Shown here: positions 9,831 through 26,231 of the stretch, in pieces
Numbering within the stretch: the first letter of the stretch is position 1
Layout of the letters: the number at the start of each line of letters is the position of its first letter
DNA from: an uncultured Caldilineaceae bacterium
Lineage (GTDB): Bacteria > Chloroflexota > Anaerolineae > Caldilineales > Caldilineaceae
Direction: 5' to 3'
DNA length: 64,000 bases
Assembly: GCA_951813625.1 (NCBI GenBank)
Contig: CATOTS010000014.1
Location: 62,001 to 126,000 of the forward strand
The notes under the pieces: model-generated
What the model was told of the DNA's origin: nothing
The model's database searches: none
The model's input: only the letters and a program-made list of their open reading frames with translations
Made by a program: the position numbers and the translations under genes

Positions 9831-10916
9831 ATGTCTATGCACTGTCTCAATCGCACCACTGTGACCTTGGTACTGATCCTGGCCCTCGTCTCCACAGTGT
9901 TTGTCGCCCCGGCAACAGCCATTGCCGGTTCCAGTTGCAGTGTCTCTTTGGCCGGCATGGACCCGCCGGTCTGCTTTTCGCCAAGCGGCGTCGGGTTCAA
10001 GCTTTACTTCATCGGCGGAAAGGGCGTTTCGCAGGGCCCGCAAATTCCTGGCGTGGCGGAACTGGCTGAAATGAACCCGAAGGGTTCTGGCAATGTGGTG
10101 GTGTATACAGGTACAAATCCGATGTCGGGCGCGCTCGTTGTCATCAGATACCTGTCCGACGATCAGCTGATCCATGTGCATGCAGGCATCTGGGACAGTC
10201 ACCACGAAGCCTTCAAGCCCATTATTTACGTAGTCGATGGGGAAAACAATGCCACACGATGGGAGGCTGACAACCTGCCATCATTACCTCCTGCGCCCGA
10301 CGAAGAGACGATGGCTTCCGACGAAGAGACGATGGCTTCCGACGAAGAGACGATGGCTTCCGACGAAGAGACGATGGCTTCCGACGAAGAGACGATGGCT
10401 TCCGACGAAGAGATGAAGGCTTCCGACGAAGAGATGAAGGCTTCCGACGAAGAGATGAAGGCTTCCGACGAAGAGATGATGGCCTCCGAGGAAGAGATGA
10501 TGGCCTCCGAGGAAGAGGAGAAGTCCACCATCGATCAACCCCGCGGCGAGATCGACATGGTAGCCTTGGATCCGGCGACGCCGGTTGAGGTGGATACGGT
10601 CGGTTCCGACCTCGTCTTCTATCTTGTCAGCGCTGACGGCGTTGTTCAAGGTCCGCGGCTTCCCATGGTGGCCAGATTGGCTGACAAGTACCCTGAGGGA
10701 TCAGGTAATGTCGTTCTTTACACAGGAACGAATATCCCACCGAAAGCGTCGGTGGCCGCCCCAGTTGTCATCACCTATCTATCCGATGATGCGATTGTCC
10801 ATGTGCATACCTTCACCTGGGACAGCCATAACGAAGCGCTCAAGTCTTATGTCTTTGTGATTGATGCAGAGGACTCCGTTTCATTCTGGGAACAGGGTGA
10901 AGAGGAAGAGAATTGA
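9831..10916 (+). CDS. Secreted protein: two copies of one domain separated by an acidic heptapeptide repeat
   Basis: ATG 9831 after GGAGGAAGAG; signal peptide MSMHCLNRTTVTLVLILALVSTVFVAPATAIA; duplicated VVxYTGTN...VVI(R/T)YLSDDxxxHVHxxxWDSHxEA. Confidence 0.8.
   Translation: MSMHCLNRTTVTLVLILALVSTVFVAPATAIAGSSCSVSLAGMDPPVCFSPSGVGFKLYFIGGKGVSQGPQIPGVAELAEMNPKGSGNVVVYTGTNPMSGALVVIRYLSDDQLIHVHAGIWDSHHEAFKPIIYVVDGENNATRWEADNLPSLPPAPDEETMASDEETMASDEETMASDEETMASDEETMASDEEMKASDEEMKASDEEMKASDEEMMASEEEMMASEEEEKSTIDQPRGEIDMVALDPATPVEVDTVGSDLVFYLVSADGVVQGPRLPMVARLADKYPEGSGNVVLYTGTNIPPKASVAAPVVITYLSDDAIVHVHTFTWDSHNEALKSYVFVIDAEDSVSFWEQGEEEEN
10299..10529 (+). repeat. 21-bp in-gene tandem repeat encoding (DEETMAS)5(DEEMKAS)3 and variants
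   Basis: GACGAAGAGACGATGGCTTCC repeated about 11 times. Confidence 0.95.
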
Positions 10917-12750: not shown

Positions 12751-15700
12751 ATGGAGACGACGAGAAACCATAGACTCGACAGTCCCGGCAGCCACCGCGC
12801 CGGCCCGATAATGCTTGCGGCGTTCATCCTGTTGGCGATTGCCATTGCGGTCATTGGCAGTCTACCCACATCTGCCCAGGAGGACAGTAGGGCTGTCGGC
12901 GATGTGCGCGTGGAGAGCAATCAGAGCGGAGAACTGGAAGTATCGTGGGATGCGCCGACAGATACGCCGCGCGAATATCGCGTCAACTGGGCGCGGGTGG
13001 GCGAGAACTTCCCGACTTGGACCGACAGTTCTGGCAACGCTTTTCCTACAATTTCCTCATACACGATTACCGGTCTGGATCAAGGCGTGCGCTACAAGGT
13101 GAAGGTGCGCGCCCGTTTCGACGGTCCTCCCGGTGCCTGGAGCAACATAGTCGAGGCTGTCGTCGCGTCTGCTGCGCCTACATCTACGGCGACAGGCACA
13201 AACACGCCGATCCCAGCAGACACGCCGACCTCTACATCTAGGGCAACAAGCACGGCTACGCCGATCCCCGTGGACACCGCGACATCGACATCCACGCCGA
13301 CGGCCACACCTACGGCCACATTGGTAATCCTAGAGAGCGTTGTGGTGCTGGATGATGAAACCACACACACGGTCACAGCCACGGCCACGCTGCGGATTCA
13401 GGTGCAGTTCCTGCCGACGGTAACACCTACGGCCACGCCGCGGATTGAATTTCGGGTTCTGCCGACGTTCACAGCCACGGCCACGCTAGAAGTTGCGTTG
13501 CAGCTCATGACTACGCCCACCCCTACGGCCACACCTACGGCCACCGACGACGTTCCAGCAGTAACGGTCAGTTATGCGCAGTCAAGCTACAGCGTTGGCG
13601 AAGGCAGCACCGTCGCCATCACGGTCACCCTGAGTGCCAACCCAGAACGCACGGTGACGATCCCGATCACGAGCACCAACCTGGGCGGCGCGTCCAGCGC
13701 CGACTACTCAGGCGTGCCCGCCAGTGTCACCTTCAACAGCGGCGACACCGAGAAGACGTTTGACTTTGCGGCGGCGCAGGACGCCGACATCGATGTCGGC
13801 GAGTCGGTTAAGCTGGGCTTCGGCACGCTGCCCACAGGGGTAAGTGCCGGAACCCACAGCGAAACCACCGTCAACATCATGTCTCCCTGTGTTGCAGGCG
13901 GGGCGGTACCTGCGGGAGAGGAGTATGCGGGATTGGCCCGCGACTGCGAGATATTGCTGGGGCTGCACGACGACCTCGTCGGAACTGCAACGCTGTCCCC
14001 GGCATGGTCCGTGGATAACAGAATCAATTCTTGGGAAGGGATTAGTCTCGTCGAAGACCGGGTTGACCGCATCAATTTAGGTGCACAGAACCTAGATGGC
14101 ATTATTCCGGCGGCACTGGGCACACTCAGAAAATTGACAAACCTGGACCTTCGAAACAACATGTTGACCGGCACGATTCCGAGCGAATTGGGCAGTCTCA
14201 CGAATCTGAAAGAGCTGAACACGTCTAATAATCAGCTTACGGGTAGCATTCCAGATACACTGGGGGACTTGTCTGCTCTTGAATCCCTTTTGCTGAGTAG
14301 TAACCCGTTTGATGCCGAGATTCCAACTGAGTTGGCCCAACTCACCTCGCTCAAGACTTTGGAAACGGTTCAGGCTCAGTTGAAGGGACCTATTCTTGAC
14401 CTGAGCGTCATGACTAGCCTGGAGTACGTTGACATGTCAAAAAACCAGTTGACGGGTACGATTTCGTCCCTAGCCAACCTCACTGGCCTTAAGCGCCTGC
14501 ATCTACATGAGAATCAACTTAGTGGAACAGTACCAAATATCGCGGACTTGCCTCTGATAAGTTCTTTCAACGGGCAATTTAATCAGTTTACCGGAGCAGT
14601 ACCAGATATCTCTAACTTGCCTCTGATAAGTTTTTTCAACTTGCAAGGAAATCAGTTAACCGGGTCCATTCCCCCCCCCGAGCAATCTGCCCGAGCTTGA
14701 GGAATACTATGTTCACCGCAACATGTTGTCAGGGCAGATTCCCATCGCGAGTAGCCTGCCCAAGCTGGAAATATTTTGGGTCCACTGCAACGGATTCTCC
14801 GGCTCGATTCCTGACGCACTGAACAGTATTACAACCCTGAAACGGTTGCTTCTTTTCGATAACCAGTTGACTGGAGAGATTCCAGATCTGAGCGCATTAG
14901 AAAGTCTGGAATGGCTGTGGCTGAACCACAATCATTTGGAGGGGGACTTTACCGATATAACTGCCACTGCGGCCGAACTACCTTCGACGGTGTGGTTGAC
15001 GCTGAATGCCAATCTGTTTGAAGGCGTGGATAGGGACACAGGAGTAATTGCCGCTACTCTGCCAGACGATGTGTCCTGGACCGTAACCTCCAGGGCCCCC
15101 TGCAACCCGCGGGCCAGCTTTGATGCCACAACTTACTCGGCAACCGAAGGTAGCGTGATAACTGTGACGGTGCGACTGGAAGTGGCAGCAGGGGATTCAG
15201 TGGCGATTCCCCTCGTCGTTGGGCACAACGGGGGAGCGAGTGCTTCCGATTACAGCAGCTTGCCATCCAGCTTGACGTTTGATAGTGATGAAACGTTGAA
15301 GTCGTTTACGTTTACGGTGACTGACGACAACGAAAATGACGATGACGAGAGTCTGACCCTGAGCTTTGGCACGCTACCCACTGGGGTCAATCCTGGGAGC
15401 CCGATGACGACGACGATCAAGCTGGTGGTTATGACTTGGCGACAGTGTCGTTCAGTGCGGCGTCCTACACTGCCATCGAGGGTGGAAGCCCGGTCACCAT
15501 AACGGTGGAACTCAGCGACGAGCTAGAGGAGAGTGTGACGATCCCGATTACGACGACCAACCTGGGCGGCGCGTCCAACGACGACTATTCCGGCGTGCCC
15601 GCTAGTGTCACCTTCAGCAGCGGCGACACCGAGAAGTCCTTCACCTTCAGCGCCACCCAGGACACAGATGACGACGACGACGAGTCGGTGAAACTGGCCT

Positions 15701-18418
15701 TCGGAACGTTGCCCATCAGCGTGACCGCGGGGATGAAGGACGAGACCACCGTCAACATAACCGATGACGATGATCCGGTGGTGAAGGTGAGTTATGAGCA
15801 GTCGAGCTACACCGTTGGCGAAGGCAGCAGTGTCGCTATCACGGTCACACTGAATGCGGCCCCTGAGCGGACAGTGACGATCCCTATCACGACTACCAAC
15901 CAGGGCGGCGCAAGCGCATCCGACTATTCGGGTGTGCCTGCCAGCCTCACCTTCAACAGCGGCGACACCGAGAAGTCATTCACGTTCAGCGCAACACAGG
16001 ACACCGACAACGATGACGGCGAGTCGGTGAAGCTGGCATTCGGAACACTGCCCACTGGGGTAACTGCGGGCACAACCAACGAAACGAAGGTCAACATCAC
16101 CGACGACGACGTGCCGTCAGTAACGGTCAGCTATGAGCAGTCGAGCTACACCGTTGGCGAAGGCAGCAGGGTCGCCATCACGGTCACCCTCAGCGCGGCC
16201 CCTGAGCGGACAGTGACGATCCCTATCACGACTACCAACCAGGGCGGCGCAGCCAACGCCGACTACTCCGGGGTGCCCGCCAGCCTGACCTTCAACAGCG
16301 GCGATACTGCGAAGAGCTTCAGCTTCGCCGCCGTTCAGGACACGGACGACGACGACGGCGAGTCGGTGCTGCTGGCCTTCGGCGCGCTGCCCACGCGCGT
16401 TTCCGCCGGGAGCAACAACGAGTCGACCGTCAGCATCAGCGACGGCGACGTGCCTGCGGTGACGGTCGGCTACGAACAGTCGATGTACACAGTCGGCGAG
16501 GGCAGCAGCGTCGCCATCACAGTCACGCTCAGCGCCGACCCCGAACGCACGGTCGTGATTCCGATCGCCAGGACCAACCAGGGCGGCGCAGCCAACGCCG
16601 ACTACTCCGGGGTGCCCGCCAGCCTGACCTTCAACAGCGGCGATACTGCGAAGAGCTTCATTTTCACGGCTGTGCAGGACAATGTTGACGACGACGGCGA
16701 GTTGGTGCTGCTGGCCTTCGGCGCGCTGCCCGCGCGCGTTTCCGCCGGGAGCAACAACGAGTCGACCGTCAGCATCAGCGACGACGACGTGCCCGCGGTG
16801 ACGGTCGGCTACGAACAGTCGATGTACACAGTCGGCGAGGGCAGCAGCGTTGCCATCACAGTCACGCTCAGCGCCGACCCCGAACGCACGGTCGTGATTC
16901 CGATCGCCAGGACCAACCAGGGCGGCGCAGCCAACGCCGACTACTCCGGGGTGCCCGCCAGCCTGACCTTCAACAGCGGCGACACTGCGAAGAGCTTCAT
17001 CTTCACGGCTGTGCAGGACAATGTTGACGACGACGGCGAGAGCGCCAATCTGGCCTTCGGCACGCTGCCGACCGCTGTCTCCGCCGGCAGCCCGGCCACA
17101 GCGACGGTCAACCTTTTAGACGACGACGCGAGCTTGCAACCCATACTGCAGGTGGCAGCGTCCTTCGCTGCCGCGCGCTACACTGCCGCGGAAGGCGGGA
17201 ATTCAGCATCCGTTACGGTGGAGTTGGATGCCGACGCCTCAGGTACGTTCACAATCCCGTTCAACGTCACGCTCAACGGGGGTGCGAGCGCGGCTGACTA
17301 CAGCGGTGTACCTGCCAGCGTTACGTTCAACAGCGGTGACAGGGAGCAGACTTTCACCGTGACCGCCACCGACGACAGTGTGGACGATGACGGCGAGAGT
17401 CTGACGCTAGCCTTCGGTACGCTGCCCGACAACGTATCCCCAGGCAGCCTGGTCGGCACCACGATTGACCTCCAGGACAATGACGGCAGGGAGCCCAATA
17501 GGCCGACTACAAACTGCGAAGCCGACCACAACGGCTCCTGAGAACAACGGTCTAACTATGGTCGCCGTGTCGTTTGAAAAGGAACAGTACGCGGCGACGG
17601 AGGGCGGCAACCCGGTCTACATTGCGGTGGAGTTGAATGCTGATCCAAGGCGCACGCTTACGGTCCCGCTCAACGTAACCTTAGTCAACGGAACCGGCGC
17701 GGCCGACTTCAGCGGCGTGCCCGTCAGCGTGACCTTCAACAGCGGCGAGATGTCGAAGACCTTTGCCCTTACCGTTATGGATGACAGCAACGACGACGAC
17801 GACGAATGTCTGATACTGACCTTCGGTAGTCTGCCCGTTGGCGTTTCCGCAGACAAGCCGGACACCGCGACGGTCTTTCTTCTCGACACAGACATGCCGC
17901 GGCTAGCGGTGTCATATGGTGCGCCTAACTACACGGCGGCAGAAGGCGGGAGTCCGGCCGTGATCACGGTGGAGTTGGATGCCGATCCGGAGCGCACAGT
18001 TACGGTCCCGATCTCCGTAACGCACAACAGGGGCGCGAGCGAAGACGACTACGACGGCGTCCCCGTCAGCATGACGTTCAGCAGGGGGGATAGGTCGAAA
18101 ACATTCACGGTGACCGCGATAGACGACAGTGCGGTCGACGGCGACGAGCGCGTGGCGCTGTCCTTCGGGCCGCTGTCTGCCGAAGTGTATGCCGGCAACC
18201 CAAGCACGACTGTGGTCAACCTGGTGGACAATGACTCCAGATTGATGCTGGTGACGGCATCGTTCGACACGAGGACCTACTTGATCCCGGAGCTTGCCCA
18301 TCCGGTCGTTGCCTCGGTCACAGGTACCGTCACGGTGGAGTGGGATGTAGTTCCTTGGGGTACGGCGACAGTCCCCGCCGGCGATACGCGCAAACGAGAC
18401 GAGAGCGGCGGCGACTAA
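12751..18418 (+). pseudogene. Large modular surface protein (FN3, Thr/Pro linker, leucine-rich repeats, multiple Calx-beta domains) broken by frameshifts
   Basis: ORFs 12751-14700, 14723-15502, 15436-17541 and 17465-18418 alternate between two frames while domain homology continues. First break at a C9 run (14671-14679); second near 15425-15440 (expected KLVDDDLATVSF); third near 17480-17540. Confidence 0.8.
15436..17541 (+). repeat. Calx-beta repeats with about 339-bp (113-aa) period
   Basis: SVTVSYEQSSYTVGEGSxVAITVTLSAxPERTVxIPI...DYSGVPASLTFNSGDTxKSF repeated; 16447-16785 and 16786-17124 are nearly identical. Confidence 0.9.
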
Positions 18419-24433: not shown

Positions 24434-24486
24434 CGTGAATTTGATGTTTCTCGTCCGGAAGCGGCCTCCGGCAATTCCATTGCAGA

Positions 24487-24560
24487 CAGTGCCAACAGTG
24501 CCCACAGTGCCAACAGTGCCAACAGTGCCAACAGTGCCAACAGTGCCCAAAGTGCCCACA
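24487..24560 (+). repeat. 9-bp tandem repeat (CAGTGCCAA/CAGTGCCCA, about 8 units) just upstream of the SDR gene
   Basis: Direct reading of 24481-24560. Confidence 0.92.
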
Positions 24561-24571
24561 GGAGAACAATC

Positions 24572-25336: not shown

Positions 25337-25440
25337 TACGCGTTTTCGACCGTAGGCCTTTCCACGCGGTACAGGCTGAACCGGGTTTCCAGACGGCTGT
25401 CGATCACTTTTGACATCGGGCGGCACCTGTGGAATACTGT

Positions 25441-25555
25441 CGGCATATCCCATAACAAAGGAGGTGATGCAAATGGATAACTGTAGTCGTAGTACTGGTC
25501 CGGTAGCATCACCTCGGGATATTGTCCTCTAGGGAGTGCTATCGGACCAGAAGCC
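25441..25555 (+). ncRNA. Candidate structured regulatory RNA / leader with alternative stems
   Basis: GAGGTGATGC (25461-25470) pairs perfectly with GCATCACCTC (25506-25515); outer ATATCCC (25445-25451) with GGGATAT (25516-25522); alternative CTGGTCCGGTAGCA (25495-25508) with TGCTATCGGACCAG (25537-25550). Confidence 0.6.
25473..25532 (+). CDS. Short leader-type ORF, 19 aa (MDNCSRSTGPVASPRDIVL)
   Basis: Very strong SD AAAGGAGGTGAT upstream; the SD is inside the predicted hairpin. Confidence 0.4.
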   Translation: MDNCSRSTGPVASPRDIVL

Positions 25556-25556
25556 A

Positions 25557-25589
25557 CAAGACCCCGTCATTGGCGGGGTCTTGTACTTT
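25557..25589 (+). terminator. Terminator-like hairpin
   Basis: CAAGACCCCG-TCATTGG-CGGGGTCTTG then TACTTT; perfect 10-bp stem, weak T tract. Confidence 0.75.
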
Positions 25590-25887
25590 CCCGGCCTGGT
25601 GGGAAGCGCAATCGAAATCCTCGGGCCCGGACCGAGCGCTCTGTAGGGCGAGCGCAGGGCCTGCCCCACTGGTGGCCGCGGCGTTCGCTGACTTGGGGGC
25701 GGCGCGTAGGGCCGCAGGTAGCACAGGTCTGCATTGACCCCATACGCGGCGGGGGACGCGCACTACGGCCGTGTGGGCACGGGGCGGGTTGGCGACGCGC
25801 TGGAATCGCGCAGGCACGGTGGCGGGGCGACGGGCGGCCGGTTGCGCAGGGCTGCATTAGAATCCACACGCGGCGGGTGGGGTTTCA

Positions 25888-25944: not shown

Positions 25945-26231
25945 AAAAAGGACACAGGAAGGCGTTTCCCCCACTCCGCCAGTAGATGGACCGTCGACCG
26001 GGCATGACTTAGATGCAACCCGAAGCATGGGAATTCGAACTCCAATAGTTGACTGCATCCATCTCGCCGAAGACCATTGACAGAGGGATTCGGTTCGGCT
26101 ATACTCGACATTGTGAGTATATTCACAATCTGCCGGCGTTGTGCCGGCGCCGGACCTGACTTTCAGGCCTGGAACTCTTGTACTTCGAACGATGTTTCGC
26201 GGCAGAATAGGCCGCGATAAGGAGATCTCGC

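Follow-up and report, generated by a model that had tools for sequence, protein, structure and literature searches.

What kind of RNA, if any, is encoded between the SDR gene and the P450 gene of an uncultured Caldilineaceae bacterium, and on what would it act? The window analysed here, a stretch of 64,000 nucleotides from contig CATOTS010000014.1, holds between these two genes a Shine-Dalgarno sequence (SD), a very short open reading frame (ORF) and several overlapping helices. An earlier note had read these from the letters alone, and its observation holds up on almost every point and lies well outside chance expectation. The features, all on the + strand, are as follows.

25410..25438, +: sigma-70-type promoter, TTGACA-17-AATACT with TG before the -10 (10/12 consensus; 0.1 expected in shuffles of the region)
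~25445..25590, +: predicted transcript of ~145 nt (ends deduced from promoter and terminator; unit delimited by alignment of homologues)
25445..25451, +: ATATCCC, the local form of a conserved upstream GCYATCC element
25457..25468, +: near-perfect SD AAAGGAGGTGAT (core invariant in 65 distinct relatives)
25461..25470, +: 5' arm of helix P1, GAGGTGATGC (direct sequence reading and comparison of P1 among relatives)
25473..25532, +: ORF of 19 codons, MDNCSRSTGPVASPRDIVL, ATG at 25473 and stop TAG at 25530-25532 (conserved in relatives)
25495..25508, +: 5' arm of helix P2, CTGGTCCGGTAGCA (sequence and covariation)
25506..25515, +: anti-SD GCATCACCTC, the 3' arm of P1, inside the ORF (shares 3 nt with P2)
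25537..25550, +: 3' arm of P2, TGCTATCGGACCAG, 4 nt past the stop codon (sequence and covariation)
25557..25589, +: intrinsic terminator, hairpin 25557-25583 (CAAGACCCCG..CGGGGTCTTG) and a U-poor tail (fold, and two-sided pairs in relatives)

Given the position of the promoter, the RNA is expected to start near 25445 and to end past the terminator near 25590; genus relatives have similar promoter hexamers at the same position. As far as sequence can tell, this is an independent transcription unit with its own promoter and terminator, and its anatomy is well supported. The folded strand has a minimum free energy (MFE) of -92.1 kcal/mol (z = -4.93), and 0/200 shuffles are equally stable. P2 (25495-25550) and the terminator are separate, and both are present in the MFE fold. 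The terminator hairpin lies 6 nt past the second P2 arm, as had been described, and the predicted fold lengthens it to 13 pairs; its U-tract is poor (TACTTT), so that a simple terminator scan misses it. Many relatives from outside the genus, including L018, L020, L022 and L025, have a further 5' hairpin (such as CAGCTAGGC..GCCCAGCCTG) between the promoter and GCYATCC.

The SD-sequestering pairing given in the earlier note is borne out: the P1 arms (25461-25470 and 25506-25515) pair 10/10, the second of them within the short ORF, which runs from ATG to TAG as proposed. The second helix likewise has the 14 pairs, the single G-U and the 3-nt overlap with the anti-SD that had been given for it. 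The claimed outer 7-bp stem, ATATCCC/GGGATAT, is there in the sequence but is confined to the window species and its nearest relative; other members of the genus have a shorter one, and outside the genus it is not conserved. ATATCCC can pair either with the SD or with GGGATAT (25516-25522), 3' of the anti-SD.

The window's genome has one copy of the element, a second match being only the opposite-strand reading of the terminator. A scan of IMG/VR did not find the element, and with this and the single genomic copy a mobile element or repeat was rejected. BLASTN places the element in 41/100 searched genomes, including 16/17 of the genus, and scanning one genome from each GTDB species with an exact pattern returned 60 loci, whose titles, with one exception, read Chloroflexota, Anaerolineae or similar, or "bacterium". 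A 1.5-kb contig labelled Krumholzibacteriia (L079:1-1543) carries an element nearly identical to that of an Anaerolineae locus (L062), and is probably mis-binned. With a covariance model of the class, built on 65 distinct sequences, the element is found in 257/397 class genomes sampled and 147/222 genera, nearly always as a single copy (154/233 among good-quality class genomes). The same model is positive in 92/301 genomes spread over the phylum, other classes included, and the lack of a match in many phylum members may reflect either absence or divergence. A second covariance model, made from other lineages only, has the window element as its sole hit (E = 3.7e-4). The layouts described here are those of lineages other than some with weak R1 matches.

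Covariation in these homologues supports the helices. P2 is 93% paired in the 65 distinct relatives, with two-sided changes at 9/12 pairs, and in the same set 13/13 terminator pairs show two-sided changes (0/500 shuffles). Taken jointly, P2 and the terminator have 88.7% of cells paired, compared with 70.5% in shuffles, and two-sided changes at 22/25 pairs; 0/500 shuffles are as high. P1 is paired in 650/650 cells (10 pairs, 65 class members), where all changes are one-sided G-U and none is two-sided; covariation of P1 within the first class is uninformative because the SD side barely varies. Among 20 sequences of other lineages RNAalifold picked P1 unprompted, with 7 compensatory cells at two pairs, a number that 0/500 shuffles reach. 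In one within-class group the SD side reads GGAGGAGG and the anti-SD side CCTCCTC, and in L171 a G-C replaces an A-U of P1; both are consistent with a maintained helix.

No Rfam family reaches its gathering score in the window or in 14 loci of other lineages, and 14 relatives searched by E-value have only weak leader or sRNA matches, below gathering, at the element. A literature search found no description of such an RNA in the sources within its reach, which took in a minority of subscription papers. The proposal of a novel, conserved, regulatory-type RNA that joins a short ORF to two competing structures is upheld. We conclude that the element is a real, apparently undescribed RNA family at the level of the phylum, one that combines a short ORF with an SD switch.

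How do the two helices relate? The earlier note held P1 and P2 to be either exclusive or joined in a pseudoknot. In the window, where they share 3 nt, an H-type pseudoknot could let them coexist. In other lineages they are true alternatives, since the arm past the stop codon mimics the SD region (L172, for instance, has CGGTGATGCCC) and can take up the same anti-SD as its partner. This pairing has p<=0.05 in 17/18 cleanly registered frame-2 elements. L185, L193 and L196 have a variant layout, with an SD-like segment within the ORF, and two of them, L185 and L193, have an anti-SD 3' of the stop codon; this is an apparent inversion of the switch.

We folded 111 members in three states: the RNA without its 3' arm, the full RNA, and the RNA with a ribosome footprint over the stop codon. 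On a score where 0.5 is a complete P1, the mean is 0.42 without the 3' arm, 0.06 in the full RNA and 0.23 with the stop codon masked, and masking brings P1 back in only about half of the set. The SD is mostly paired in all three states (unpaired 0.17-0.23). In the full-length RNA its mean unpaired value is 0.20, its partners being mostly segments further 5', the conserved GCYATCC among them, so a cleanly open state is not predicted from P2 alone.

The stop codon lies 16-20 nt past the anti-SD anchor in 95/95 cleanly registered elements, and the length from ATG to anti-SD takes five values, all in steps of three and in one frame, in 77/77 elements of the first class. These counts take in 77 + 18 clean elements, with spurious registers (frame 0 and a few of frame 2) set aside. 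With a ribosome sitting on the stop codon, a spacing of 16-20 nt would bring the ribosome's trailing edge to the anti-SD, although the spacing could also stem from the geometry of the RNA rather than from the ribosome.

We therefore consider it somewhat probable that the element is a freestanding translated RNA with an initiation switch operated by the ribosome. In the computed folds, the anti-SD of the growing RNA would pair with the SD and keep P1 closed; once the post-stop arm is made, P2 would form and remove the anti-SD; and a ribosome masking the stop codon would bring P1 back in many members. Translation may thereby have to wait for the complete RNA, and each ribosome at the stop codon may break P2 and let the SD close behind it, which would make initiation self-limiting. 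Control of the SD switch by the ribosome is the part that we infer, and it is well motivated. More tentatively, and with considerable doubt, the act of translation could be what is sensed, rather than the peptide or a cis gene, with the terminating ribosome resetting the SD, so that the RNA would gauge how active ribosomes or release factors are.

Do neighboring genes support a role in cis? In the window, the P450 gene has its own strong promoter (TTGACA-17-TATACT, 11/12; 26077-26105), ~130 nt before its start, and the element was rejected as a P450 leader on this ground and for want of a conserved cis gene. Elsewhere the next genes, called as longest ORFs with Pfam support, are co-directional in some lineages (AIR synthase-like, TilS, photolyase, SurE, PIG-L, lipoate ligase, luciferase-like protein) and convergent in others (HNH nuclease, sigma-70 factor, LMF1, SDR, ABC-F, methyltransferase). 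No conserved downstream cis gene is found among the lineages compared, where Pfam families and orientations differ, which agrees with the earlier remark that a cis target is not obvious. A role in cis that extends to every lineage can be excluded, and the element may be locally recruited as a leader in some. The window also carries repeats: eight copies of the 9-base unit ACAGTGCCA between the monooxygenase-like and SDR genes (24486-24561), a long tandem array with a 339-base unit in 4.6 copies (15538-17091) and a near-perfect 21-base repeat in 10.5 copies (10297-10517).

These neighborhoods weigh on two of the four alternatives. A leader-peptide attenuator, governing a downstream gene through read-through of the terminator, would account for the order of SD, short ORF and terminator and for the close co-directional genes of some lineages (AIR synthase-like, TilS, photolyase and lipoate ligase). 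However, P2 and the terminator do not overlap, hence no antiterminator helix overlapping the terminator is seen, and the downstream genes vary by lineage or, as with HNH, sigma-70, LMF1, SDR and ABC-F, are convergent, while the P450 has its own promoter; we regard this explanation as quite improbable. Still less credible is a sensor of antibiotics or serine starvation acting by early arrest in the ORF, in the manner of erm or Ser-codon leaders. The element's size is typical of such leaders and the early Ser codons (codons 2-9) are recurrent, with AGT in 167/226, but no matching pathway gene is found, no regulated resistance or biosynthesis gene is consistently downstream, and the AGT preference may merely keep the start region unstructured.

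The other two alternatives turn on the peptide and on the RNA itself. An mRNA for a functional micropeptide, with P1 and P2 as its autoregulation, is possible but doubtful. An in-frame ORF of 16-20 aa, its stop close to the 3' arm of P2, is present in 93/93 loci of the first set, whose search pattern required neither frame nor stop, and other classes have ORFs of 12-22 aa. M-[D/N]-S-S with AGT codons recurs across classes, and in the window's genus pN/pS is ~0.30 for codons 2-9 (14 sequences). Yet this estimate is built on few changes, and the ratio is 1.05 in codons 10-14 and 0.76 in codons 15-19. Between classes, conservation also fails to extend to the VASP part or the C-terminus of the peptide, and other lineages, together with the L152/L153 group, read the anti-SD in a different frame (ATC ACC vs GCA TCA CC). 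The mRNA of a type I toxin was rejected as a candidate, the peptides (e.g. that of the window, and MSSKRMGVTAGEAR) being polar rather than of the hydrophobic membrane type. A dual-function small RNA, in which the anti-SD stretch ATCACCTC is exposed in the P2 state and pairs with the SD regions of target mRNAs in trans, with translation of the ORF as the toggle, is unlikely. The independent unit, the strong terminator, the exposed anti-SD and the lack of a cis gene would suit it, but the sole conserved single-stranded stretch in the P2 state is a generic anti-SD, with little target specificity. The earlier note had offered both a translation-responsive element and a dual-function small RNA; these remain the best classes, and the evidence favors a translation-responsive, freestanding RNA. 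We think an action in trans most likely, through either the N-terminal coding part (M-[DN]-S-S..) or the RNA as such, and not control of a neighboring gene. The third suggestion, a riboswitch-like element, finds no support: the invariant columns are the SD, the P1 and P2 arms, the start region and GCYATCC, i.e. paired, SD or coding positions, and neither a conserved unpaired ligand core nor an Rfam match is seen.

The element can be compared with several known systems. In erm-type translation attenuators, a short leader ORF is translated and the ribosome controls SD pairing. The element has an ORF of similar size and a paired SD over which we propose similar control, but it hides the SD of the short ORF itself, whereas erm hides that of the following gene. 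SgrS, RNAIII and SR1 are dual-function small RNAs, freestanding and with a short ORF and a terminator. The element resembles them in these respects, as judged from sequence, and differs in being phylum-wide and in having its switch built into the ORF. Chloroflexi-1 RNA (RF01698) is a structured RNA reported from Chloroflexus aggregans, and the loci searched, among them L183, which is probably from that species, have no match to it at gathering score. Leader-peptide attenuators and uORF leaders (trp/ilvB type; uORF candidates, PMC11109978) share the strong SD, short ORF, alternative helices and intrinsic terminator, but the element lacks a conserved downstream gene and an antiterminator, and its terminator lies outside the switch. 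Downstream-peptide/yfr6 RNAs (PMC2864571) also tie a structured region to a short conserved ORF; they belong to another phylum and differ in sequence, the element's structure covers both ORF and stop codon, and there is no match at gathering score. The element would work like a ribosome-controlled leader but appears to lack what defines attenuator leaders and riboswitches.

With this finding, a large phylum whose RNA biology is little known would gain an RNA family that is undescribed and anciently conserved. Cultivable species, Chloroflexus aurantiacus, Roseiflexus and Herpetosiphon among them, presumably carry members, which would open the question to bench testing. The short ORF is kept while the frame through its key motif shifts, and in this family selection for translation can be told apart from selection for the peptide.
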